A DNA stretch of 36,522 nt from Spirochaetaceae bacterium (GTDB lineage: Bacteria; Spirochaetota; Spirochaetia; DSM-27196; SKKC01). The translations under genes were made by a program, and so were the position numbers. The notes under the pieces are model-generated. The model was not told where the DNA came from, searched no databases, and was given only the letters and a program-made list of their open reading frames with translations. Below are positions 12,499-25,222 of the stretch, piece by piece. The stretch spans positions 1 to 36,522 of the forward strand of contig RECN01000107.1 in the NCBI GenBank assembly GCA_007694005.1, read 5' to 3'. Position 1 is the stretch's first letter. Each line of letters begins with the position of its first letter.

Positions 12499-14775
12499 AT
12501 GACACCAATGTCCGACCGCACAACCGGTTACAACTATCATTTCAACGATTCGTTCTACCTCAGGGTGTTTCCCGACATGCAGGGTCCTGCGTGGTATCGA
12601 GGCAAACGGATTACACCGGTACATGCGGGTTCGCGCCTCGTGTACGTGACCGATTACGACACGGGTCTCAGTTTCAACCCCGCGGCGACGCACCTGCCCA
12701 CCGTCCCTGACCGGCACGAATGGGACGCGTCGGACACGCAGACCCGCTGCACCGCGGAAGCCGATGGTGTTCACGTGACGTGGACCATCATGACCCCGGG
12801 CGAGGCGCCGGTCGAGCTCTGGAGAATCGAGGTCGGAAACCAGAGCACCCGCCGGCGCCGGGTCGGGCTTGGAGCCGCGGTCCTTGCCCCCGAAGGGGGG
12901 CACATGGGTGCGCGTACCGAGTGGGACTCGGAGCACTCCTGCATTCTGGCGCAGCAGATCAGCTTTCACGGCCGCTACGACGACTACGCGGTTATCGCGA
13001 CCGATCCTCAGGGCACAGCACTCGTGGCCCATCCGGCGCCGGATGCTGTCTGCTGCTCATTATCCGAGTTTCGCGGGGGCAGGCCGCTCGGGTCTTTGCC
13101 TGCATTCCTCGACGCGCAGGCGAGAAGCTGTCCGGTAAACAGCGCCGAAGCACCAGTCCTTGCCGTCCGGTACGAGCGCGAGCTGGAACCCGGTGCCACC
13201 GCGGCTGTGTTCCTGTCTGTTCTTCGTGCGAACGACGGTACCGAGGCTTCCTTGCACGCCGTAACGAGGCAGGAGGAATGGGATGCTGCCTCAAAGAGCG
13301 CTGTGCAGTACCTCGACCGCTACGCAGGAAGCTTCACGATCGACACGCCGGAACCGCGACTGAACGACATGGTAAACCGTGGCCTGCGCAGGGAAATCCT
13401 CTGGGAGACCCGCTTGTGGCGAAACGGCATCTCCACCCCCTGGCGCAACGAACTGCAGGATGCCCTCGGCTACGCGGTGTGGAATCCGGATGAGGCGGTC
13501 CACTACCTTGAGGCGGTCACGCGTGCGCAGCGTCCCGACGGCTACCTGCAGGTCTGGAACACCCGGGAGGGTGAGAAACCCAACCATCCCCTCGTGAACC
13601 TCCGGCATACCGACGGTGGAATCTGGCTTGTGGTATGCTGGATCAACTTCTTCAGGGTCACGGGCTGCTGGGATCTCTGGGACAGGCAGCTTGCCTATAC
13701 CGATGGAAGCTCTGGACCGCTGTCAGAGCACCTGCGCCGCGCGCTTGAGTTCTCTTTCGCCGACCGCGGTGCTCACGGGCTCGTGCTCATGCACGACGGG
13801 GACTGGACTGATCCCATGAATGGTCCCGGCCGGGAAGGGCGCGGTGAAAGCGGCTGGGCGACACAGGCGCTTCGCTATGCGTGTGCAATTACAGAGAAAT
13901 CACTGAAGGAACAGGGTGATGATGCCGGCGCCGACCGCTGCCACGCTATGGCAGACGAGCTCGGAGCGGTGATCACGACTGCACTCTCACGCCGCGACGG
14001 CGCCTACGCCTACGGATACGACGACGCAGGCAGGCGATTCGGCGACGAGACCGACGGTCGCACCTTTCTGAATACACAAAGCTGGGGGCTCATCTCCGGC
14101 GCCGCCGCGGAAGACTGTTCCGCCGTGGATAACGGCGCCGCCGGTGAGCTCGACGGCACCGCAGACGGATGCGCCCGGGCGATCCGGAGACTCGCAACGC
14201 CCTACGGACCCCGTCTGCTCGACCCGGCCTTCGGAGGCTGGGACCCGCAGATCGGCAGGGTCAGTCTCAAGGTTCCCGGTACGACCGAGAACGGGTCGGT
14301 CTACTGCCACGCTTCGGTGTTCGCGGCCTACGGGCTTGCCATGATCGGTGATGCCGATGCGAGCCTTGATATCGTCCTGCGTACGATTCCGGGACACCCC
14401 GATCATACTGCCGGTGTTCCGAAGCAGCTCGCTTTGTACCAGCCCAACAGTTACTTCTACGAACCCGGGCACCCGCAGTGCGGTACCAGCACCGGAACAC
14501 TCGGTACCGGAACCTGTACCTGGATGGTGCTAACGGTGTTCCAGCAGTATTTCGGTATTTCTTTCGGTCCTGACGGCCTCAGGGTGGAACCACGACTTCC
14601 GTCGGGCTGGGAACGGGCGTCGGTTACGTTTGCCCGGAGCCATACGGTGTTTGATATCCACGTTGAACGGTCGGAGTGTGACACGCCGCAAACCATGGTC
14701 AACGGCGCGCTTCACACCGCGCCGTGTATTGCCTGGGAGCACGAATCACGAGTCAATGTGGTCGTTCTCGTGTAA
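12499..14775 (+). CDS. GH94-like glycoside phosphorylase / GH36-like superfamily enzyme
   Basis: A 758-residue cytosolic carbohydrate enzyme with no signal peptide. The N-terminal 270 residues are the beta-sandwich of glycosyltransferase-36-type proteins (SRLVYVTDYDTGLSFNP, NQSTRRRRVGL). The catalytic (alpha/alpha)6 barrel carries the GH94 marks: HDGDWTDPMN followed by GREGRGESGWATQ, with Trp436 and Asp438 at the place of the phosphorolysis general acid, then FLNTQSWGLISGAA, LKVPGTTENGSVYCHASVF, PNSYFYEP and a C-terminal FGISFGPDGLRVEPRLPSGW. GH94 enzymes reversibly split beta-glucosides such as cellobiose or chitobiose with phosphate. The family's usual DWND reads DWTD here, so the substrate may differ. 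Two ATGs (12499, 12508) are possible. It is next to the flavoprotein gene at 14844. Confidence 0.8.
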   Translation: MTPMSDRTTGYNYHFNDSFYLRVFPDMQGPAWYRGKRITPVHAGSRLVYVTDYDTGLSFNPAATHLPTVPDRHEWDASDTQTRCTAEADGVHVTWTIMTPGEAPVELWRIEVGNQSTRRRRVGLGAAVLAPEGGHMGARTEWDSEHSCILAQQISFHGRYDDYAVIATDPQGTALVAHPAPDAVCCSLSEFRGGRPLGSLPAFLDAQARSCPVNSAEAPVLAVRYERELEPGATAAVFLSVLRANDGTEASLHAVTRQEEWDAASKSAVQYLDRYAGSFTIDTPEPRLNDMVNRGLRREILWETRLWRNGISTPWRNELQDALGYAVWNPDEAVHYLEAVTRAQRPDGYLQVWNTREGEKPNHPLVNLRHTDGGIWLVVCWINFFRVTGCWDLWDRQLAYTDGSSGPLSEHLRRALEFSFADRGAHGLVLMHDGDWTDPMNGPGREGRGESGWATQALRYACAITEKSLKEQGDDAGADRCHAMADELGAVITTALSRRDGAYAYGYDDAGRRFGDETDGRTFLNTQSWGLISGAAAEDCSAVDNGAAGELDGTADGCARAIRRLATPYGPRLLDPAFGGWDPQIGRVSLKVPGTTENGSVYCHASVFAAYGLAMIGDADASLDIVLRTIPGHPDHTAGVPKQLALYQPNSYFYEPGHPQCGTSTGTLGTGTCTWMVLTVFQQYFGISFGPDGLRVEPRLPSGWERASVTFARSHTVFDIHVERSECDTPQTMVNGALHTAPCIAWEHESRVNVVVLV

Positions 14776-14792: not shown

Positions 14793-14820
14793 TTGACACC
14801 GGATTAAACATAGGTTTACA
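14793..14820 (+). promoter_or_regulatory. Promoter with TAAAC-N4-GTTTA operator before flavoprotein 1
   Basis: TTGACA (14793-14798), six bases, then the palindrome TAAACATAGGTTTA (14805-14818), whose right half forms the start of a TTTACA -10 at 14815-14820 (spacing 16). The exact reverse complement of the 14-mer recurs before the ABC importer gene at 19564-19577 with the same six-base gap. It is the likely site of the GntR/LacI-type regulator encoded at 24110. Confidence 0.7.
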
Positions 14821-14843
14821 TCGTCCAGAAGGATGTTTTACGC

Positions 14844-16412
14844 ATGAACACAACCCACGCAGATCTCGTTGTATACGGCGCTACCCCCGCTGGTATCGCC
14901 TCCGCCTGTACCGCTTCCGACCGCGGCATGACGGTACTGCTGCTTGAGCCTGGGAAACACGTTGGTGGGCACCTCACAAGCGGGATCTGTACGACTGAAT
15001 GCGAGCACATGCTCGCTCCGAGTTTTCGCGGCTGGATGCTGAAGTTCCTGCGACTGCTTGGAGACATGTACAACATTGATGCTCCGCTCCACCGCTGGGA
15101 GCCGCATCGGGCGACCGAGGCCTATCATACCCTGCTCGACGAGGCAGGAGTACAGCTTCGCATGGAGTCGGTGATCGCGACGGTGCAGACCGGGAGTGCC
15201 CGCATTACGTCTGTGACCCTGGAAGACGGCGCCGTCGTCAGCGCTCCGCTGTGGATAGACGCTTCGTACGAAGGCGATCTCATGGCAGGAGCAGGAGTTC
15301 CCTATGCCGTGGGACGCGAGCCGATTTCCACCTACCGCGAAAGCCTCGCCGGAGTTCGATTTATCGACAGCCTCGAGGAGGTCGAAAACTCCAAAGGCCA
15401 CGCCTGCCGGATCGATCACGTATGGGAAATGGACCTGAAGGATAGCCGTGGTCGCTGGATAGACGGGATCATCCCGTCAGAAGGTATACATGAGACTCGC
15501 GGAAGCGGTGACGGCAAGGTCATGAACTACCACTACCGGGTTACGGTCAGCTCAAAGCCCGACCGCGTTCCCTTTCCCGTTCCGTCCGACTACGACGAAT
15601 CGCGCTATGAGCTGCTGTCGCGATTTTTCCATTCTGCTCCAGAGACCGATTTGCGCATGGTCCTGGCCTTTCTGAATCACCCCTCCGGGCAATACGAACC
15701 GCATCCGGAGCTGTTTACCAAAGTGACCCCCGGTTTGAAGTGGGAGCTGAACAACCTGCAGGGATCTATTCTGTCGCTCGGACACCTCGGCGGGCAGTTT
15801 GATTATCCCGACGGCGATCGGGAAACGCGTGCCCGGGTCATACAGGACCATTACAGCCACAACGCGGGACTGCTGCATTATCTGAGCACGAGCACCGACG
15901 TTCCACCGCACATCCGAAGCGAGATGAACCAATGGGGACTCCCGGCCGACGAGTACATGGACAACGACCACTGGCCCTACCAGCCCTACATACGCGAGAC
16001 ACGGCGCATGCAGGGCGCCTACGTCATGACGCAGAAGGATCTGCTTGAGGATATAGAGAAACCCGACTGCATCTACTGGAACTCGCACTGGATTGACTGC
16101 CACCACGTGCAGCGCCTCGGTCTCGACGATACGCACTTCCGGAACGAAGGCCGAATCTGGAAAGAAATCACGGTGCCCTACGCGGTTCCCTACCGGGCGC
16201 TTCTTCCAAAGCCTGAACACTGCACGAATCTGCTCGTACCCGGCTGCGTGAGCTCGAGTCACGTCGCGTTCAGTTCGATCCGCCTCGAAAGCACGTGGAT
16301 GGGGCTCGGGGAGGCGGCGGGTGAGGCGGCAGCCCTTGCGCACGAGGCCGACGGTACTGTTCAACGCGTACCGTCGGACCGTCTGAGGGATCGCCTGGGT
16401 CTTTCGGGATAG
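14844..16412 (+). CDS. FAD-dependent oxidoreductase (FAD_oxidored family), copy 1
   Basis: A 522-residue flavoprotein without signal peptide. The N-terminal dinucleotide loop LVVYGATPAGIASACTASDRG and the following VLLLEPGKHVGGHLTSG are typical of the FAD_oxidored (Pfam 12831) group; a second FAD contact comes at APLWIDASYEGDLMAGAGVPYAVGRE, partly quoted as DASYEGDLMAGAG. The C-terminal cap contains HWPYQPYIRETRRMQGAYVMTQ and the FAD-closing NLLVPGCVSSSHVAFSSIRLE. The substrate of this family is largely unknown; linkage to sugar uptake and glycosidase genes suggests a sugar or glycoside. AAGGA stands ten bases upstream of the ATG. It has its own promoter and operator and shares the fold with the protein at 17840. 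Confidence 0.85.
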   Translation: MNTTHADLVVYGATPAGIASACTASDRGMTVLLLEPGKHVGGHLTSGICTTECEHMLAPSFRGWMLKFLRLLGDMYNIDAPLHRWEPHRATEAYHTLLDEAGVQLRMESVIATVQTGSARITSVTLEDGAVVSAPLWIDASYEGDLMAGAGVPYAVGREPISTYRESLAGVRFIDSLEEVENSKGHACRIDHVWEMDLKDSRGRWIDGIIPSEGIHETRGSGDGKVMNYHYRVTVSSKPDRVPFPVPSDYDESRYELLSRFFHSAPETDLRMVLAFLNHPSGQYEPHPELFTKVTPGLKWELNNLQGSILSLGHLGGQFDYPDGDRETRARVIQDHYSHNAGLLHYLSTSTDVPPHIRSEMNQWGLPADEYMDNDHWPYQPYIRETRRMQGAYVMTQKDLLEDIEKPDCIYWNSHWIDCHHVQRLGLDDTHFRNEGRIWKEITVPYAVPYRALLPKPEHCTNLLVPGCVSSSHVAFSSIRLESTWMGLGEAAGEAAALAHEADGTVQRVPSDRLRDRLGLSG

Positions 16413-16432
16413 CCTACGAGATTTTCCTAAGA

Positions 16433-16461
16433 TTGACACAGGCAGGCATACCTCATAGTCT
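16433..16461 (+). promoter_or_regulatory. Predicted promoter of the receiver-PAS gene
   Basis: TTGACA (16433-16438), 17 bases, TAGTCT (16456-16461). The ATG follows at 16470, eight bases after the -10, with no Shine-Dalgarno, again pointing to a leaderless mRNA. Confidence 0.5.
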
Positions 16462-16469
16462 TATTGACA

Positions 16470-17240
16470 ATGAAAAAACGTATCCTGCTCGTCGAAGACG
16501 ATGGCATAATCGCCATTGCGAACCGGCGCGCTCTTGAAAACGAAGGCTACGAGGTACAGGTTGCCTATACCGGCGAGTCTGCCGTTGAGCGCATGCAGGA
16601 AGGGTGCACCGAGTCCGGTTGCGCGTTCGATCTTGTACTCATGGACATCAATCTTGGTTCGGGCATGGATGGTACTGAGGCTGCACGGGAGATTCTCGGA
16701 TTTCTCGACATACCCGTCGTCTTTCTTTCGAGTCACACGGAACCTGAGGTGGTCAGAAAGACCGAGCAGATCACCTCCTACGGATACGTCGTAAAGAGTT
16801 CACCGGCTACGGTTCTGTTTGCCTCGATTACTATGGCGTTTCGTCTGCACGATGCTCGCATGGCGGCAGAGAAGGCGGAACGGCGAAACCGTATTCTGTC
16901 TCACGTCGCGAACAGCCGGAACACCATCATCATTATTACCGACCGGAACCGTATAACGACATGGGTGAACGACGCGTGCGAGAAACTCACCGGGTACACG
17001 CGCGAAGAGCTGATCGGCAGGAACACAGGCGACCTCTTGCAGGGGGCCGGTACGGATCCGACCGTTGTGGCCGAGATTCGCCGGGCAATGAACGTTCACC
17101 AGGAGTATCAGGGCGAGATCCTGAACTACACAAAGAACGGCACCCCGTACAGAATAGACATGGACATTCAGCCGGTATTTGACGAGTCCGGGGAGCACAC
17201 CCATTTCGTCGCCATACAACGGGACATTACCAGCAGGTAG
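16470..17240 (+). CDS. Response regulator with receiver and PAS domains
   Basis: A 256-residue signalling protein. The receiver has Asp10/Asp11, phospho-acceptor Asp59 (LVLMDINLGSGMDG), Ser87/Ser88 and Lys109 (YGYVVKSSP). After a charged helix (MAAEKAERRNRI) a PAS domain spans about residues 140-256, with the TWVNDACEKLTGYTREELIGRN entry helix region and a terminal PVFDESGEHTHFVAIQRDIT. There is no kinase or output domain, so the protein ends right where a histidine kinase core would normally begin. It may be an adaptor or a shortened form of a receiver-PAS-kinase; the following 540 bases on the opposite strand are a decayed gene. The start is ATG 16470 rather than TTG 16464. Confidence 0.87.
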   Translation: MKKRILLVEDDGIIAIANRRALENEGYEVQVAYTGESAVERMQEGCTESGCAFDLVLMDINLGSGMDGTEAAREILGFLDIPVVFLSSHTEPEVVRKTEQITSYGYVVKSSPATVLFASITMAFRLHDARMAAEKAERRNRILSHVANSRNTIIIITDRNRITTWVNDACEKLTGYTREELIGRNTGDLLQGAGTDPTVVAEIRRAMNVHQEYQGEILNYTKNGTPYRIDMDIQPVFDESGEHTHFVAIQRDITSR

Positions 17241-17778
17241 CGGTATTCGCACCGAATAGCAAGGGCGCTGTCTTCGGGAACGGAACCAGCTGTATCCCGT
17301 CTACGGTAGCCGATTCCGCGCCTCCGTAGACGAGCGCGGCTCCGTAGACGAGCGCGGCTCCGTAGACGAGCGCGGCTCCTGCGAGACCTGTTCCTGCGTC
17401 TCGATCTGAAGTAACCAGGCCAGAAGTCCCGGTCCGGTGAAGTAGAGTTTCGGCGTCTTCACGAATCGCTTTCCGAGGTTTGCGTGATATCGCTTCACTA
17501 AGCGCTGGCTGGTCGCTGCCAGTGAGGACAAACTGCCCGGCTGCGATCTCGGCATCCACGAACACCTGCACCCACGAGAGAATCTCGGGCTCGCGCTGTG
17601 CCTCATCGACAATCAGCTTCTCCTGTCCTCGCGGAGCAGCGTCCGTGTCTGATACTCGGACAATTTTCAAGTCGTATTTGATATTTGGACGCTTCGCTGT
17701 CGTGATACCGGAGCCGCCTGAGATATCAACAACCTCGCCTCCGACTATCCCGGCTTTTGCGCTGAAAAGTAGCCTCAT
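17241..17778 (-). pseudogene. Decayed AAA/DUF4143-type ATPase remnant
   Basis: The minus strand carries two pieces of one protein family in different frames. The upstream piece (about 17616-17487) reads LIVDEAQREPEILSWVQVFVD then FVLTGSDQ, matching the Walker B and sensor region of AAA_14 ATPases. About ten bases later another frame (about 17501-17390) reads KRYHANLGKRFVKTPKLYFTG and GLLAWLL, matching the C-terminal DUF4143 domain. The Walker A part and roughly the middle 150-200 residues of such proteins are missing. This is deletion plus frameshift, so a functional product is unlikely. The region ends in a triple 18-bp repeat. Such ATPases are frequent, often mobile, passenger genes. Confidence 0.75.
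17322..17379. repeat. Three tandem 18-bp repeats
   Basis: The unit CTCCGTAGACGAGCGCGG occurs at 17322-17339, 17340-17357 and 17358-17375, plus four further bases. It lies in the ATPase remnant. Period 18 keeps frame (repeated ALVYGA on one minus frame), so it looks like slippage in decaying DNA. Confidence 0.9.
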
Positions 17779-17785
17779 CAGTCTA

Positions 17786-17799
17786 TAAACATATGGTTA
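17786..17799. promoter_or_regulatory. Third TAAAC-N4-GTTTA-like operator, before flavoprotein 2
   Basis: TAAACATATGGTTA matches the 14-mer upstream of flavoprotein 1 at 12 of 14 positions: left half TAAAC perfect, right half GGTTA with one change. It lies 41 bases before the start codon at 17840. No TTGACA lies six bases ahead, so the promoter geometry differs from the other two sites; a clear promoter was not found. Confidence 0.5.
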
Positions 17800-17839
17800 T
17801 TCATGATATACCCCTCCTTTGTGCGATACAGGAGGCACT

Positions 17840-19507
17840 ATGTCAGCGATTGAAGAATACACGACGCAGGTACTCATAGTCGGGGGAGGGCTCGGAGCGG
17901 TCGCTGCCGCGCTGTCTTCGTGTCGTCTCGGGTGCCGGACTATGCTCGTAGCCCCGGACAGCTGGCTCGGGGGGCAGGCAACCTCGCAGGGAGTTCCGCC
18001 GGATGAACACCCGTGGATCGAGTCGACGGGCGCGACCGCCTCGTACCGGGAGTTCCGCAGTCGCATTCGCGCCATGTACCGTGAGCATTTGCCGCTTGAT
18101 TCGCGCTGGAAGCTTGACCCGCGGTTGAACCCCGGGGGAGGACATGTATCGCCCATTACCCATGATCCCAGGGTATCCGTGCAGGTCATAGAAAGCATGC
18201 TTCTGCCGTTTCGGGTGGGAGGTCTGCTGACCATCCTTCGCGGGTACCGCCCGGTTGCCGCCGACGCAGACGGTGATCGTGTGCGCTCGGTCGACTTCGG
18301 TGCTTTCTCGGTTGAGGCCGACTACGTGCTCGATGCTACCGAGACCGGGGATCTGCTCCCGCTCGCAGGCGTCGAGTATCGCACCGGTGCGGAGGCACAA
18401 AGCGATTTTGGCGAACCGCATGCACCCGAGGTGGCCGATGAGGCGAACATGCAGGCGGTCAGCTGGTGTGCGGTGCTCGGCTGGGATCCGGGGAATCGAC
18501 TTCCTCCCGTAGAACGTCCTGGCAGCTACACGTACTGGAAAGAAACGGTCGCTCCATTCTGGCCGGGGGCGCAGCTTTCATTCGAGAAGATCGACCCCAT
18601 TACCCGCGCTCCACAGACGAGCACACTCTTTGGGACAGGCCTGAAGGGGGCTGATCCGGAGCCCGGAACCATGAATATCGGAGGTCTCTGGGCCTACAGG
18701 CGCATACACCGACCCGATCTGTTCAGTCCGGGGCTGCCGTTCCTCGATGCAACGGTACTCAACTGGCCGCAGATCGACTACTGGGAAGGGCCGGTCTTTG
18801 ACGTCCCGGATGCAGAGCAGCACCTGACACGCTCCCGGGAACTGACATTGAGCTTCATACACTGGCTTCAGACCGAAGCGCCCCGGCACGACGGGGGGGA
18901 AGGCTACCTCGAAGTGATACTTCGCCGTGACATGTTTGAGACGCCGCACGGCCTTGCCCGCGAGGTGTATATTCGCGAGTCACGACGGATTCGAGCGCGC
19001 ACCATGGTAACAGAGTGCGACGTCGCGAGTGAGATCCGTCCAAAGGGAGCCGGGGCAACCGTATACGCCGATACCGTCGGTCTTGCAAGCTACCGCATCG
19101 ATCTGCACCCGACGACCTCGGGTGACAGCTACATAGACATAGAGTCCTATCCCGCGCAGATACCGCTTGGAGCGCTCATACCCGAACGCGTGCGCAATCT
19201 CATTCCCGCGTGCAAGAATATCGGGACGACGCATCTCAGCAGTGGCATGTACCGCGTGCACCCGGCGGAGTGGAACATAGGCGAAGCAGCAGGTGCCCTC
19301 GCGGCGTACTCGGTTCAGCACGGGACCGAACCCCACGCGGTGCACGAGCGGGCCGATCTGACCGCAGACCTGCAGAGCATCCTCCACGACCGGCTCGGAT
19401 TCGAGCTTGAGTGGCCGCGGCACGTCGCTGAGGTACCTCGCTGGGCACCTCAACTGCAGTGGATTATCCGTGAGAAACGGGACGGATGGCGAGTGGACAA
19501 GTCGTAA
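17840..19507 (+). CDS. FAD-dependent oxidoreductase (FAD_oxidored family), copy 2
   Basis: A 555-residue flavoprotein. VLIVGGGLGAVAAALSSCRLG is the FAD loop, followed by MLVAPDSWLGGQATSQGVPPDEHPW, the FAD_oxidored signature region (quoted in part: SWLGGQATSQGV). Later come DYVLDATETGDLLPLAGVEYRTGAE-type motif and a C-terminal RNLIPACKNIGTTHLSSGMYRVHPAEW closing the FAD site, the latter close to known family members. The start is the ATG of MSAIEEY because AGGAGG lies five bases upstream; an ATG 21 bases earlier lacks a ribosome site. It is only distantly similar to the protein at 14844. The gene lies just upstream of the importer operon and shares its operator type, supporting a joint role in handling the imported sugar. 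Confidence 0.86.
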   Translation: MSAIEEYTTQVLIVGGGLGAVAAALSSCRLGCRTMLVAPDSWLGGQATSQGVPPDEHPWIESTGATASYREFRSRIRAMYREHLPLDSRWKLDPRLNPGGGHVSPITHDPRVSVQVIESMLLPFRVGGLLTILRGYRPVAADADGDRVRSVDFGAFSVEADYVLDATETGDLLPLAGVEYRTGAEAQSDFGEPHAPEVADEANMQAVSWCAVLGWDPGNRLPPVERPGSYTYWKETVAPFWPGAQLSFEKIDPITRAPQTSTLFGTGLKGADPEPGTMNIGGLWAYRRIHRPDLFSPGLPFLDATVLNWPQIDYWEGPVFDVPDAEQHLTRSRELTLSFIHWLQTEAPRHDGGEGYLEVILRRDMFETPHGLAREVYIRESRRIRARTMVTECDVASEIRPKGAGATVYADTVGLASYRIDLHPTTSGDSYIDIESYPAQIPLGALIPERVRNLIPACKNIGTTHLSSGMYRVHPAEWNIGEAAGALAAYSVQHGTEPHAVHERADLTADLQSILHDRLGFELEWPRHVAEVPRWAPQLQWIIREKRDGWRVDKS

Positions 19508-19536
19508 GGGAAGAAAAACATCGAAATTCGCGTATC

Positions 19537-19597
19537 TTAGTTAGAATATGTTTGACAGTATAGTAAACCTATGTTTATCTAACTAAATCCTAGTTTA
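19537..19597 (+). promoter_or_regulatory. Importer operon promoter with two tandem operators
   Basis: TTGACA (19552-19557), six bases, TAAACCTATGTTTA (19564-19577), with TTTATC as -10 at 19574-19579. A second, weaker site TAAATCCTAGTTTA lies at 19584-19597, exactly 20 bp further. A separate perfect 9-bp inverted repeat, TTAGTTAGA (19537-19545) and TCTAACTAA (19578-19586), encloses the promoter. The gene itself has AAGGAGG eight bases before its ATG. This is a dense repressor-type control region. Confidence 0.72.
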
Positions 19598-19620
19598 TCG
19601 TACCCAAGGAGGTATGTACC

Positions 19621-20928
19621 ATGAAATTGTCAAGACTGCTTTCAGTGCTGATTCTGCTTCTTGCAGTTCCTGCGCTGGTGTTCGCAGGTGGCGGTCGCGA
19701 AGAGACCGTTCAGGTCGAGGAAGGACAGCAGCTCGTCCGCGTCCTTGTTCCCCGTTGGGCTTCAACCGGCGATGTCCGTGTCGAGCGCCAGGTCGCATTC
19801 CAGAGCGTGATTGACTCCTTCGAGGCGGCAAACCCGAATATCCGCGTGCAGGAAGTCATCTCGTCGGCATCGAGCTACGATATTGACGTCGCGACTCAGA
19901 TCGAAGAAGGAACCGTCGAAGTCGTATGGGTCAACAATCCCTTCTACCCGACGCTGCAGGCACGAGGCCTGTTCGCTGATCTTACCCCGCATCTGTCTGC
20001 CGAAGACGAAGCCGACTTCTTCCAGTGGACGCTTGACGCCCTGCGGTCAGTAAACGGTGAGCTCGGTGGCCTCTGGCACAATACCGACGTGCGGCTGTTC
20101 TTCTACCGTGATGACCTTATCGCCAGCCGTCCGGACAGCATCGAAGCCTTTCTCGAGATTGCACGCGATATTCGTGACAACGAAGATCTCGCTCCGTTCT
20201 TCCTGAGTCTCGGCCACACGGACGGATTTATTCCGCTGTATGGTGTATTCGACGCACTTGGTGGAGAGCTGGTCGACGATGAAGGCCGGCCTGTCGCCCT
20301 CGAAGGTCAGAACAGAGCGTATTGGGAGCAGATCTTCGAAGCGATGAAGACCATGTTCGACGAAGGCCTTATTCCTGAAAGCACCGCCGTTTCGCGCGAA
20401 GCGGCCGTAGTACCCCTGCTACTCGCGGGTGAAGTTGCTTCATTTATCGGGAACAGTAACTATGGCTTGCGCGAGATTGAGGCAAAGCTGCCACCGGACG
20501 AAGCCGCACGCTGGCAGGCTGCGCCGACATTCGGTTTTGAAGGCACTCCCGGCCGTGGAGTGAGCGGCGGTTGGGTATTCTCTGCCCGCAACATCGACGA
20601 CAATCCTGCTCTGCAGCAGGCGGCGATTGACTTCGTTCTTCACGCAACCGGTTTCTCGGCACAGCGAAACACGAACAAGGCAGGCGGCTGGACACCAACG
20701 CGCGCAAGCGTCTTTACCGGAGACAGATTCTACAGCGAGGACCGGTTTATGGTCGCCACAGCAGAAGCGCTTGAGAACTCGACCATCCGACCACTCGTCC
20801 GAATCTCGCCGATTATTGCGCAGGTCATGATGGACGCCATGAGTGTATATCTGACGACGAACCAGTCTCTTGACTCGATTCTCGACGGTGCCGCACGAAC
20901 CCTCCAGGCCGAGTGGAGCAACCTGTAA
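19621..20928 (+). CDS. ABC sugar importer, extracellular substrate-binding protein
   Basis: A 435-residue family 1 solute-binding protein. The signal peptide MKLSRLLSVLILLLAVPALVFA is followed by GGGREE, a spirochaete-type N terminus without a lipobox Cys. Mature sequence shows the two-lobe pattern: VLVPRWASTGDVRVERQ, EVVWVNNPFYPTLQARGLFADLTP, GLWHNTDVRLFFYRDD and FGFEGTPGRGVSGGWVFSARN (Gly-rich ligand lobe). It binds an oligosaccharide or glycoside in the periplasm and delivers it to the two permeases that follow. Ligand unknown. A 12-bp hairpin follows the stop, and strong AAGGAGG precedes the start, both typical for high expression of this subunit relative to the permeases. Confidence 0.93.
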   Translation: MKLSRLLSVLILLLAVPALVFAGGGREETVQVEEGQQLVRVLVPRWASTGDVRVERQVAFQSVIDSFEAANPNIRVQEVISSASSYDIDVATQIEEGTVEVVWVNNPFYPTLQARGLFADLTPHLSAEDEADFFQWTLDALRSVNGELGGLWHNTDVRLFFYRDDLIASRPDSIEAFLEIARDIRDNEDLAPFFLSLGHTDGFIPLYGVFDALGGELVDDEGRPVALEGQNRAYWEQIFEAMKTMFDEGLIPESTAVSREAAVVPLLLAGEVASFIGNSNYGLREIEAKLPPDEAARWQAAPTFGFEGTPGRGVSGGWVFSARNIDDNPALQQAAIDFVLHATGFSAQRNTNKAGGWTPTRASVFTGDRFYSEDRFMVATAEALENSTIRPLVRISPIIAQVMMDAMSVYLTTNQSLDSILDGAARTLQAEWSNL

Positions 20929-20937
20929 CAACCTCAC

Positions 20938-20965
20938 GGCAGTACCACCACCCGGTGGTACTGCC
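20938..20965. other. Intercistronic hairpin after the binding-protein gene
   Basis: GGCAGTACCACC (20938-20949), loop ACCC, GGTGGTACTGCC (20954-20965): a perfect 12-bp stem nine bases after the stop, with no T-run. As in malE-malF, it would protect the upstream mRNA or partly stop transcription, giving more binding protein than permease. Confidence 0.8.
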
Positions 20966-20982
20966 ATTCAGGAACATCATTT

Positions 20983-21870
20983 ATGGATACCCGCCTGCAT
21001 CGATTTGTCAGCGGCCCCTGGCCGTTCATTATTCCCGCTTTGTTCGCGCTGATCGTCATGCGTGCTTTCCCCGCGGTCTGGCAGATATGGCTGTCTATGA
21101 CCGACATGAGACTCGGAGATCCCGGTTCTTTTGTGGGTCTGGCGAACTTCCGGGCGATTTTCGGAAGCTCGGCTTTTCTGGGTTCAATCTCGTATACCGC
21201 GATTTTTCTTGTATTTACCGTAGCGGGCCAGATGGCGCTTGGGCTCTGTCTCGCGCTCATTCTTGAAGGTGACTATCGGGGACGCGACATCTATCGCACG
21301 CTCTTTCTTATTCCCTGGGTCATCAGTGGTCTGGTTGCCGGTATTATGTGGCAGCTCATGTTTGTGGAGACCAGGACGGGTTTACTCAACGCCTTCATCG
21401 GGCAGTTCGGCATGAACCCGATTCGATGGTTGAGCAATCCGACGAATGCCCGCGTTTCGGTAATCATGGTGTATATCTGGAAAGGCGTCGGCTTCTCCAT
21501 GCTGCTGCTTTCCGGCGGCTTGAAGACAATTCCTGACGAACTTCTCGAGTCAGCTGACATCGACGGCGCGAGCGCGTGGCGAAAACTCTTTTCGATCAAA
21601 ATACCGATGATGAAAGAGATCGTGAGCGTGAATTTTATCTTCGCGACGATCGCGGCATTGAACTCCTACGAAACCGTACTCGTGCTCACAAACGGCGGCC
21701 CAGGAGGTGCCACATCCCTGATCGCTCTGGAGATGTTTCGCACTGCATTTGGCGAAAGTCGGAACCAGCTTGGTCGCGGTTCCGCGATCGGTGTTGTCAT
21801 GTTCGCCGTAACTCTTGTTTTTGTAATCATATATGTGCGCATGACCCGCTTTGGAAAGGAGAACTACTGA
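20983..21870 (+). CDS. ABC sugar importer permease, MalF/UgpA type
   Basis: A 295-residue inner-membrane protein with six predicted helices, first at PFIIPALFALIVMRAFPAVW. The EAA loop that contacts the ATPase is visible as LLESADIDGASAWRKLFSIKIPMMKE (ESADIDGASAWRKLF is the core). It forms the translocation pore with the next gene product. AGGA lies nine bases before the ATG. The stop overlaps the start of the second permease by one base (TGATG). No ATP-binding subunit gene is present in the operon, so a shared MsmK/UgpC-type ATPase encoded elsewhere is inferred. Confidence 0.93.
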   Translation: MDTRLHRFVSGPWPFIIPALFALIVMRAFPAVWQIWLSMTDMRLGDPGSFVGLANFRAIFGSSAFLGSISYTAIFLVFTVAGQMALGLCLALILEGDYRGRDIYRTLFLIPWVISGLVAGIMWQLMFVETRTGLLNAFIGQFGMNPIRWLSNPTNARVSVIMVYIWKGVGFSMLLLSGGLKTIPDELLESADIDGASAWRKLFSIKIPMMKEIVSVNFIFATIAALNSYETVLVLTNGGPGGATSLIALEMFRTAFGESRNQLGRGSAIGVVMFAVTLVFVIIYVRMTRFGKENY

Positions 21871-22718
21871 TGGCCTTACGTGGGACTCCCCTGCAGCGCG
21901 TTCGGCGCGTGACCACCCGACATCTGGTCGCGATATTTGCGACGCTGATCTTCGTATATCCTGTGCTATGGATTCTCCTTGCAGCCATAAAACCCGACGT
22001 CGAGATATATCGGCAGCCCTTGAGTCTCTTTCCGTCTCGCATCGATTTTTCGATCTTTCAGATGATTCTCAGCCGGTGGCCACTGTTCCGTTTCATTATG
22101 AACTCGCTGTTATACAGCATCGGTGCGGTCGTCATTTCGTTGGGGTTTGCGCTGTTTGCCGCATTCGGTCTTTCCCGCCAGGAATTTAAAGGTAAGCAGA
22201 CGATCCTCATCCTGATCCTGATGGTTCAGATGATACCGGCGCTCGTGTCGGTAATCCCGATCTATCTGCTCATGCGACAGCTTGGACTGTACGACACACA
22301 GATCGGAATGGTGATTCTTTACTCCGCGGCACGAATACCGTGGGGCGTATGGATACTCGTCGGATTTCTGAATCAGATCCCCCGTGCGCTCGACGAGGCG
22401 GCCACGATCGACGGCTGCACGCGTTTTGACATTCTCTGGCGCATTATTTTCCCCCTGTCACTACCGGGTCTCGCATCTGCGGCGATCTTTACCTTCGTCG
22501 GTACGTGGAACGAGTTTGCTATCGCATCAATCATCCTGCGGAGTACGCGAAATCTGTCACTACCCGTGGCGACCATGACCATGATACAGGCTGACCCGAA
22601 CGACTGGCGGCTGGTCGCTGCCACCGCGAGCGTCAACCTGATACCGGTACTTATCGTTTTCGCACTGCTTCAGAAACACATCGTCGCCGGACTCACCCGC
22701 GGAGCCCTCAAAGGATAG
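21870..22718 (+). CDS. ABC sugar importer permease, MalG/UgpE type
   Basis: A 282-residue membrane protein and second pore subunit. The first helix VAIFATLIFVYPVLWILLAAI, given here as IFATLIFVYPVLWILL, is typical of MalG-type proteins, and the EAA loop reads LDEAATIDGCTRFDILWRIIFPL, with its end in FTFVGTWNEFAIASI. Start: the ATG that overlaps the preceding stop, with AAAGGAG eight to nine bases upstream. It is followed after ten bases by the glycosyltransferase gene, which has its own AGGA ribosome site, so all are in one operon. Confidence 0.93.
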   Translation: MALRGTPLQRVRRVTTRHLVAIFATLIFVYPVLWILLAAIKPDVEIYRQPLSLFPSRIDFSIFQMILSRWPLFRFIMNSLLYSIGAVVISLGFALFAAFGLSRQEFKGKQTILILILMVQMIPALVSVIPIYLLMRQLGLYDTQIGMVILYSAARIPWGVWILVGFLNQIPRALDEAATIDGCTRFDILWRIIFPLSLPGLASAAIFTFVGTWNEFAIASIILRSTRNLSLPVATMTMIQADPNDWRLVAATASVNLIPVLIVFALLQKHIVAGLTRGALKG

Positions 22719-22728
22719 GAACCGTTCC

Positions 22729-24105
22729 ATGGCCAATATAGCTTTTTTTCAGAACAGACTCGGCCGTACCGACGGTGTTTCGCTTGAAGTCGACAAGTGG
22801 CGGGTCATTCTCGAGGGCATGGGACATACCGTGTACTACTGCTCGGGGAACGACGACGTCCTGGGGAACTACGTGATTCCCGAGCTGTACGCGCTTCATC
22901 CGGTCACCTGGAAAATTCTGCGGAACGGAACGGTGAAGTTCGAAGACTATGCGAGCGAAGCGGAGCTCGAGCGCGACATCTACGAACACGCAGACTGCAT
23001 CGAGAAGAAACTGCTCGCGTTCATTGAAAAGCAGAGGATTGACGTCCTGGTCCCGAATAACCTGTGTTCAGGGGGCTACCAGCCAGCTGCGGGTATAGCC
23101 TTTCATCGCGTCATTAGAAAGACCGGGCTGCCGACGATCATTCACAGCCACGATTTCTATCACGAGGATTCAGGAGAAGTCTGTGCAACCTGCCAGACCG
23201 TGGAAAGCATCTATGAGCGCTATTTTCCGACGAAGTTACCTAACGTACAGCACGTTGTAATTAACCGCATCAGTCAGGCTGATCTCAAGCGACGTAAGAA
23301 CCTCGACGCTATGGTCGTTCCCAACGTGTTTGACTTCGATCAGGATCCCTGGACCGAAGATGAGTACAACCGTGATTTTCGCAGAGCCTTCGGTATGTCG
23401 GAGAACGACCTGCTCTTTCTGCAGGCGACTCGCATCCTCGATCGAAAGGGCATAGAGATGGCGATCGACACGATTGCGGGAATACAGGATCCGGGACGTC
23501 GCAAAGAGCTCAACGGGGTGACGACTGCGGTCGGTGGTACGGTAGGGCCAGAGTCAAGGATCGTTCTTTTATGTGCAGGTATCGTTGAGAACATCGGTAT
23601 ATCGGGCAGTTACTGGGATTATCTCAAGCAGAAGGCAGACGGCCTTGGCGTCGATCTGCGGCACGTCGGTGATCGGGTGCGGCATTCCCGGGCTACGGAT
23701 CATGCCGGGGCGAAAGTCTACTCGTTGTGGGACAGCTACGTGCAGGCGGATTTTGTGACCTATCCGAGTTACTGGGAGGGCTGGGGAAACCAGTTTGTCG
23801 AGGCTGTGTTCGCAAAACTGCCGGTTCTGGTCTATGAGTACCCGGTGTGGACCAGCGACCTGCGGGAACACGGCTTTCAGGTCGTATCTCTCGGTTCTGA
23901 TCTGGCGGGGCGCGACGCGAACGGTCTGGTGCGTGTCGACCGGCAGACCGTTGATCGCTGTGCGGATGAGATCGTGTCGGTCCTCCGGGATTCCGGGCGG
24001 AAACAGAAGATGGTTGAACATAACTACGCAGTTGCTTCATCATCATTTTCCATGCGTAACCTCCAGGAGCATATCAAGGAGTTAATCGCTGGAACTGGAT
24101 TGTAA
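22729..24105 (+). CDS. GT4-family glycosyltransferase
   Basis: A 458-residue retaining GT-B enzyme without signal peptide. The N-terminal IAFFQNRLGRTDGVSLEVDKW has the Gly-rich acceptor loop seen in GT4 proteins, and the opening FFQNRLGRTDGVSLEV plus MGHTVYYCSG recalls mannosylglucosylglycerate-type synthases, a weak hint only. The catalytic C domain has ATRILDRKGIEMAID and the EX7E motif EGWGNQFVEAVFAKLPVLV that holds the donor nucleotide sugar. A synthetic transferase inside a sugar-importer operon is unusual; it may cap or modify an imported glycoside, or make a compatible solute from it. Start ATG has AGGA upstream. Confidence 0.87.
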   Translation: MANIAFFQNRLGRTDGVSLEVDKWRVILEGMGHTVYYCSGNDDVLGNYVIPELYALHPVTWKILRNGTVKFEDYASEAELERDIYEHADCIEKKLLAFIEKQRIDVLVPNNLCSGGYQPAAGIAFHRVIRKTGLPTIIHSHDFYHEDSGEVCATCQTVESIYERYFPTKLPNVQHVVINRISQADLKRRKNLDAMVVPNVFDFDQDPWTEDEYNRDFRRAFGMSENDLLFLQATRILDRKGIEMAIDTIAGIQDPGRRKELNGVTTAVGGTVGPESRIVLLCAGIVENIGISGSYWDYLKQKADGLGVDLRHVGDRVRHSRATDHAGAKVYSLWDSYVQADFVTYPSYWEGWGNQFVEAVFAKLPVLVYEYPVWTSDLREHGFQVVSLGSDLAGRDANGLVRVDRQTVDRCADEIVSVLRDSGRKQKMVEHNYAVASSSFSMRNLQEHIKELIAGTGL

Positions 24106-24109
24106 AATA

Positions 24110-25222
24110 ATGGACAATGCAGCTCTTATGCCTTCCGCCCACAAGTACAAACGAATAGCCGAGTCACTCAGGCAACGAATACGCAGCGGGCGCTACGACG
24201 CCGGGTCTCTCCTTCCGACGAGCAAGATGCTGGCTCTTGAGTACGATGTGACAGCGGTTACCATAGACCGGGCTGTTGCGCTGCTGGTGAGCGAGGGGCT
24301 CGTGCAAAGGACTCCCGGTGTGGGAACTTCTGTGGTCCCTCCCGAGCGGACGCATCATGCGACAGAGGAGCCGGTCGTCATTTCGGCGCTCATGCAGGCA
24401 CAGACCGATTCCCGATTCTGGGAGCGGCTCATAGAAGGGGTGAACGACATCCTGCGACCTGCAGGCATAGCCATGCTCATCGGCTATCATCAACAGAACA
24501 GAAACACCGCCCGGGAACACGCAGAACTCTTTGCAAAGCAGAAAAGCACCATCTGCCTCTTTGCTCCCTTTGACAGACCCGATAAGGCGTCCTACGAAGC
24601 CGATAACGCGGAGATGATCGAAGAGCTCAGAAGCATGGGGATGGAAGTCATACTCCTGGACCGCTACGTCGAAACAGTCCCTACGCACTATGTGTCTGAG
24701 TACTGTTTTGCACCGGGCAGGCAGATGATCGAACAGACGAGCGCTCTCGGTTACCGGAATCCGATCTGTTTCAGTACCGATTACGTGTCGGTTATCGATG
24801 CACGGGAGCGGGCATTTATTGAAGGATGCCGGATTTCGGGGATATCAGACCCCGAGTCACGGATTGTGCGACTGCCGCTTTCGACATATCAGCAGCGCGA
24901 CTATGCCAGGATTACCGAGATGATCGGCTCCCATGCCGACGCGGACCTGATCGTGTCCATGAACAGCCGTATTTTCAATACCGTCATGTACACACTCAAT
25001 CGCCTCACCGGCAGTCCGTTCAGGAAGCAGCCGCGTTTTGCCGGCTTCGTCGACGTGGAGCTGATCGATCTGGAAAACGTCATCGCCTACGTGGAGCAGC
25101 CGGTCCGTGAGATGGGACAGGCCGCAGGAAGACTCGTGCAGCATCTCCTGAACGACGACTCGGTCGAGTACAGGCACTCGCTGATTCCCTGTGAGCTGCG
25201 CATACTCGGGGACGATGAATGA
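24110..25222 (+). CDS. GntR/LacI-chimeric transcriptional regulator (AraR-like)
   Basis: A 370-residue regulator. Residues about 10-75 form a GntR winged helix-turn-helix (KYKRIAESLRQRIRSGRYD, PTSKMLALEYDVTAVTIDRAV, RTPGVGTSVV). Residues about 90-370 resemble the LacI/periplasmic-binding-like sensor (FWERLIEGVNDILRPAGIAMLIGYHQQN, LLDRYVETVPTHYVSEYC, PRFAGFVDVELIDLENVIAYVEQP). This domain pairing is that of AraR-type sugar-sensing repressors. It is last in the importer operon, only four bases after the transferase gene. Its likely sites are the TAAAC-N4-GTTTA palindromes at 14805, 17786, 19564 and 19584, which would make it autoregulatory. A hairpin terminator follows. Confidence 0.9.
   Translation: MDNAALMPSAHKYKRIAESLRQRIRSGRYDAGSLLPTSKMLALEYDVTAVTIDRAVALLVSEGLVQRTPGVGTSVVPPERTHHATEEPVVISALMQAQTDSRFWERLIEGVNDILRPAGIAMLIGYHQQNRNTAREHAELFAKQKSTICLFAPFDRPDKASYEADNAEMIEELRSMGMEVILLDRYVETVPTHYVSEYCFAPGRQMIEQTSALGYRNPICFSTDYVSVIDARERAFIEGCRISGISDPESRIVRLPLSTYQQRDYARITEMIGSHADADLIVSMNSRIFNTVMYTLNRLTGSPFRKQPRFAGFVDVELIDLENVIAYVEQPVREMGQAAGRLVQHLLNDDSVEYRHSLIPCELRILGDDE

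Follow-up and report, generated by a model that had tools for sequence, protein, structure and literature searches.

The nearest studied regulator of the kind described here is AraR, the arabinose repressor of Bacillus subtilis, in which a GntR winged helix is joined to a LacI-type sensor. AraR governs a local catabolic regulon that includes an importer and its own gene, and its repression is released by arabinose. Promoters under high control carry paired AraR operators lying in phase (PMC4218819). These operators, for example ATACATACGTACAAAT (PMC4218819), are of the GT/AC form; the G is read by R41, which is held together with R45 by E30 (PMC4218819, PMC4494728). For the GntR superfamily as a whole the operator form is NyGT-Nx-ACNy, and for its HutC-type members the consensus is GT-MTAK-AC (PMC4494728). 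The HutC subfamily (YvoA/NagR, DasR) has sensors of the UTRA type, and the sugar repressors of the LacI family (MalR, CcpA, CelR, TreR) have a LacI DNA-binding domain.

The window, a stretch of 36,522 nucleotides from a Spirochaetaceae bacterium (contig RECN01000107.1, assembly GCA_007694005.1), holds a cluster (Table 1) that is, in kind, an AraR-like local sugar regulon. Domain order of the regulator, presence of an importer and of the regulator gene itself, and tandem operator copies are all as in AraR; however, the cluster genes include no arabinose genes. The unusual part is the operator core, AC/GT where that of AraR is GT/AC, together with the matching residues of the protein. No paper combining AraR, spirochaetes and comparative regulons was found in the library searched. 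We consider it probable that the palindromes in these promoters serve as operators for a single local catabolic regulon and are bound by the product of the gene at 24110, the bound protein blocking the polymerase and a sugar-type ligand releasing it.

Table 1. Genes, putative promoter elements and operator sites of the cluster, in window coordinates
Feature	Position	Strand	Remarks
GH94-type phosphorylase	12499..14775	+	PF17167/PF06165; 4zle is the best solved relative
TTGACA, putative -35, flavoprotein 1	14793..14798	+	six bases before the 14805 operator
Main operator TAAACATAGGTTTA, flavoprotein-1 promoter	14805..14818		genome-rare exact palindrome; top score with relatives-only matrix
Flavoprotein 1, FAD-dependent oxidoreductase	14844..16412	+	PF12831
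Operator TAAACATATGGTTA, flavoprotein 2	17786..17799		third-best matrix score
Flavoprotein 2, FAD-dependent oxidoreductase	17840..19507	+	PF12831
Second, weaker operator copy TTAGAATATGTTTG	19541..19554		overlaps importer -35; 23 bp upstream of main site
TTGACA, putative -35, importer operon	19552..19557	+	six bases before the 19564 operator
Main operator TAAACCTATGTTTA, importer operon	19564..19577		covers spacer and -10 region; kept in six genomes, four families
Weak copy TAAATCCTAGTTTA	19584..19597		probably no site; score about 8.5, in null range; no counterpart in relatives
Sugar-type ABC binding protein	19621..20928	+	PF01547; MalE-type solved relatives
ABC permeases (n=2)	20983-21870 and 21870-22718	+	PF00528, MalF/MalG-like
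GT4-type glycosyltransferase	22729..24105	+	mannosylglucosylglycerate synthase distant (320.8 bits, cut-off 640)
Regulator, GntR winged helix (12-75) and LacI-type sensor	24110..25222	+	probable site owner

Operator sites and their footprint in relatives

The original prediction started from a 14-mer, of the form TAAAC-N4-GTTTA, and its exact reverse complement, each six bases after a TTGACA. Both are indeed present, at 14805 and 19564, and account for two of only three exact occurrences in the 3.9-Mb genome. The third (C137:38566) has the centre GGAA and lies inside a long ORF, and was rejected as a regulon member. Looser matches are uninformative: with two mismatches the window yields 6 where 5.4 are expected, and with one mismatch the genome yields 22 against 24 for the reversed control. 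Weak sites inspected elsewhere, among them those with one mismatch on C142 and C188, are devoid of promoter geometry and near the control in number, and were likewise set aside.

A matrix built solely from the relatives' sites placed 14805 (23.8), 19564 (23.8) and 17786 (19.95) at the top of the window, with the next score at 10.5. Over 30 Markov shuffles the best scores averaged 11.7, and one shuffle reached 20.1. The site at 17786, which had been predicted as a variant copy before flavoprotein 2, is thus well ranked, and it is identical in the sister species G001, where the preceding 80 bp are only 42% identical. The other predicted variant, at 19584 and 20 bp from the first importer site, had to be given up on its matrix score and its absence from the relatives; for this copy, chance is the likely reading.

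The proposed motif scan of the genome and its relatives came out in favor of the prediction, since besides the rarity of the exact form, the refined form WAAACMTAKGTTTW is confined to this cluster, with nine sites in 6 of the 46 genomes of the order that were searched. An ortholog of the 24110 regulator exists in these six and in none of the others. Because the pattern itself derives from sites known beforehand in the six, its absence elsewhere is what carries weight. The palindrome stands in the importer promoter of all six, as TAAACCTATGTTTA (G000, G025), AAAACATATGTTTA (G001) or AAAACCTATGTTTA (G002, G011, G033). Across families, identity is 95% in the site, 65% in the 24 bp preceding it and 27-39% in more distant flanks. 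Chance resemblance, to which the near-control numbers of one- and two-mismatch matches might seem to point, is barely credible against a position, geometry and sequence conserved in four families; for 14805, 19564 and 17786 it is refuted by this footprint. No further well-scoring site with the geometry was found elsewhere in the window's own genome, which makes the regulon a local one.

Promoter geometry and the tandem copy

In all nine strong sites a TTGACA, matched at five or six of its six bases, lies at a gap of exactly six. A site-matrix scan also found a weaker tandem copy 23 bp upstream of the main site (24 in G025) in the six importer promoters and in the GH94 promoter of G011. The final bases of this copy, as in TAAAAATATGTTTG, extend into the TTGACA. 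Conserved promoter geometry, as originally claimed, is therefore present at every strong site, but the second operator explains part of it. The TTGACA spacing and the spacing of the upstream copy look like two separate constraints, because an extra T in G025 shifts the upstream copy by one base and leaves the distance from TTGACA to the main site unchanged.

With a 17-bp spacer, the -10 box would read TTANNT or TTTANT, with T at the last position in 9/9. These boxes are poor, and a consensus promoter scan misses the promoters. The main site covers the spacer and -10 region and the upstream copy the -35, which is the layout of a repressor; overlap of the main site with the -10 suggests repression. 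The lack of a good -10 consensus behind any TTGACA would also suit activation, with the chimera owning the sites and compensating for the poor boxes from beside the promoter elements. We regard this as unlikely: the two copies lie directly over the -35 and -10 elements, a position from which bound proteins usually block polymerase, and AraR, the nearest studied chimera, represses (PMC4218819). Nor is the fixed distance between TTGACA and palindrome well explained by a conserved core promoter for a special sigma factor in place of an operator. The element is palindromic, it occurs nowhere else in these genomes, and the flavoprotein-2 site in G000 and G001 is present without a TTGACA, all of which makes such a promoter very improbable. 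At that site a TGATATAC element is seen by eye just downstream, which probably places the operator near the -35.

Under the repressor reading, the 24110 product, presumably a dimer, would bind WAAAC-MTAK-GTTTW. At the importer promoter it would occupy the main site in the spacer, overlapping the -10, and the weaker site 23 bp (about two turns) upstream, overlapping the -35, and would thereby block RNA polymerase; at flavoprotein 1 the main site has the same position. An imported glycoside or its breakdown product would then bind the sensor, the protein would let go, and the flavoproteins, the importer, the glycosyltransferase and, through its operon, the regulator itself would be made.

The leaders have features of their own. 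In all six importer leaders (window 19601-19620), TACC before the ribosome-binding site could pair with GGTA after it, as ATACC/GGTAT or GTACC/GGTAT. The flavoprotein-2 leader (window 17807-17842; L113:4015-4054; L114 of G002) could form a hairpin hiding the ribosome-binding site (CCTCCT/AGGAGG) in 3/3 genus members, the stem in G002 being different and still paired. Right before the flavoprotein-2 operator the window has an inserted, decayed antisense gene fragment (17240-17780), in which pieces of AAA_14 and DUF4143 lie in two frames together with an 18-bp repeat of 3.5 copies (17317-17379); G001 has only about 90 bp in its place.

The chimeric regulator and the operator core

The N terminus of the 24110 product is a PF00392 GntR winged helix (62.1 bits, cut-off 27). 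Only Peripla_BP families follow; a UTRA-type domain was not found, and a LacI helix-turn-helix is absent, so that GntR stands alone in the DNA-binding part. In an AlphaFold model (mean pLDDT 79), the sensor groups with LacI repressors and type-I binding proteins. It aligns with AraR (3tb6) at Z 22.1 and rmsd 3.0 over 271 positions, and with the sugar repressors of the LacI family at Z 21-23. The sensor is thus of the LacI type, unlike that of the HutC subfamily, whereas the DNA-binding domain is GntR, unlike that of the LacI family. The winged helix is similar to those of YvoA and DasR, and only 33% identical to that of AraR.

The candidate operator, AC-MTAK-GT, has the HutC-type centre and 4-nt spacing with dinucleotides opposite to those of GT-MTAK-AC. 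The opposite dinucleotide therefore falls just where the protein has lost the arginine that reads G: by alignment, E30, R41 and R45 of AraR become S38, A49 and D53. When 24 other GntR regulators from the phylum are compared, the first position is E in 20, the second is R in 20, and the third is never D. All six orthologs share the recognition-helix stretch VTIDRA and the wing RTPG. Asp-C is among the frequent predicted contacts in the GntR family (PMC4494728). The protein change may have brought about the DNA change. A bolder proposal, which we put forward only tentatively, is that loss of the G-reading Arg and gain of an Asp in the recognition helix flipped a HutC-type GT/AC to AC/GT, centre and spacing being kept, and that operator and sensor then stayed while the whole importer was exchanged in two sister species. 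If true, this would be a clean case for the GntR protein-DNA code, with one altered helix and one altered base step in the same geometry.

If the 24110 product is the owner, the conserved AC-N4-GT does not follow the superfamily form, and this departure from GT-Nx-AC counts against its ownership. A noncanonical core would be expected if a separate, unlinked regulator read the sites and the 24110 protein read something else. Such a regulator would have to occur in the same six genomes and act on this cluster only. Moreover, no second conserved palindrome is seen by eye in these promoters, and it is precisely at the residues for that base that 24110 departs from other GntR proteins. We judge an unlinked reader quite unlikely. 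Ownership by 24110 is supported by the co-distribution in 46 genomes, by the promoter position of the sites, by the base-reading residues that differ where the operator does, and by the lack of any other DNA-binding protein among the conserved cluster genes. The main weakness is that the sites and the regulator gene belong to a single cluster: linkage alone could produce the co-distribution, which therefore cannot prove ownership by itself. The response regulator at 16464 can be dismissed as an owner, since it has receiver and PAS domains but none for binding DNA.

Orthologs of 24110 in the five other genomes, three of them from other families, are 92, 88, 61, 58 and 56% identical; five of the six known come from MAGs, most on broken contigs. 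Beyond the order, a sample of 392 genomes from the phylum yielded none, but the other known holders were missing from this sample as well. In G016, a flavoprotein 2 of 59% identity adjoins a regulator that is far more distant (29%); no operator was found on the short contigs examined, which makes this a weak negative control. The ortholog in G025 (L050:5288-6394) has one in-frame TAA and is either misassembled or a recent pseudogene, with its operator intact. On a second contig of G011 (L052, C196) there are a permease, a GT and the beginning of another regulator copy, which may reflect a duplicated cluster or a mixture of two strains in the MAG.

Regulon content and importer exchange

The sites point, with good support, to a local regulon of flavoenzymes, importer, glycosyltransferase and regulator, joined in relatives by the GH94 phosphorylase. 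In the window no site lies upstream of the GH94 gene, and the operator sits between it and flavoprotein 1; in G011 and G033 the GH94 ortholog carries the operator, which precedes the GH94-flavoprotein run. The single regulon originally assigned to the chimera is thus retained on its co-distribution (6/46 genomes), with the 19584 copy dropped and GH94 added in relatives. A GH13 enzyme is also in the cluster of G000 and G001. If one inducer ties together two uncharacterised FAD oxidoreductases, a GH94 phosphorylase and a GT4 enzyme, the search for the pathway becomes narrower.

The best solved relative of the window GH94, 4zle, was deposited as a putative b-glycan phosphorylase. We take it to be the cellobionic acid phosphorylase of Saccharophagus, and because it is the closest solved relative, a cellobionic-acid role was considered as a candidate for the window enzyme. 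The GT4 enzyme scores below the cut-off of NF041101 (mannosylglucosylglycerate synthase), and was therefore left without a specific name.

The sister species G001 and G002 are close to the window in GT (89%, G001), regulator (88-92%) and flavoprotein 2 (86-87%). In these two genomes, both incomplete, no close ortholog of flavoprotein 1 was found. Their importer is an unrelated-looking ABC importer: its binding protein is about 27-37% identical to that of the window in partial alignments and 96% mutually, and the G001 permeases are 32 and 26% identical to the window's. Despite the replacement (L113:5835-7196, L114 and L046 against window 19621-22718), both species keep the promoter, the operators and the signal-peptide start. 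Since the G011 permeases are 79-80% identical to those of the window, the G001/G002 line is probably where the exchange took place. An importer exchanged behind a kept operator offers a usable natural experiment for studying how new transporters are drawn into regulons.

The relatives' records bear the sample names CSSed and CSBr, which we take to mean soda-lake sediment and brine. Elsewhere in the window's own genome (L137:95-2021, C188), a bacteriorhodopsin-like gene and a MerR-type regulator are divergently oriented, and AAAAAATATGTTTT lies between the two.
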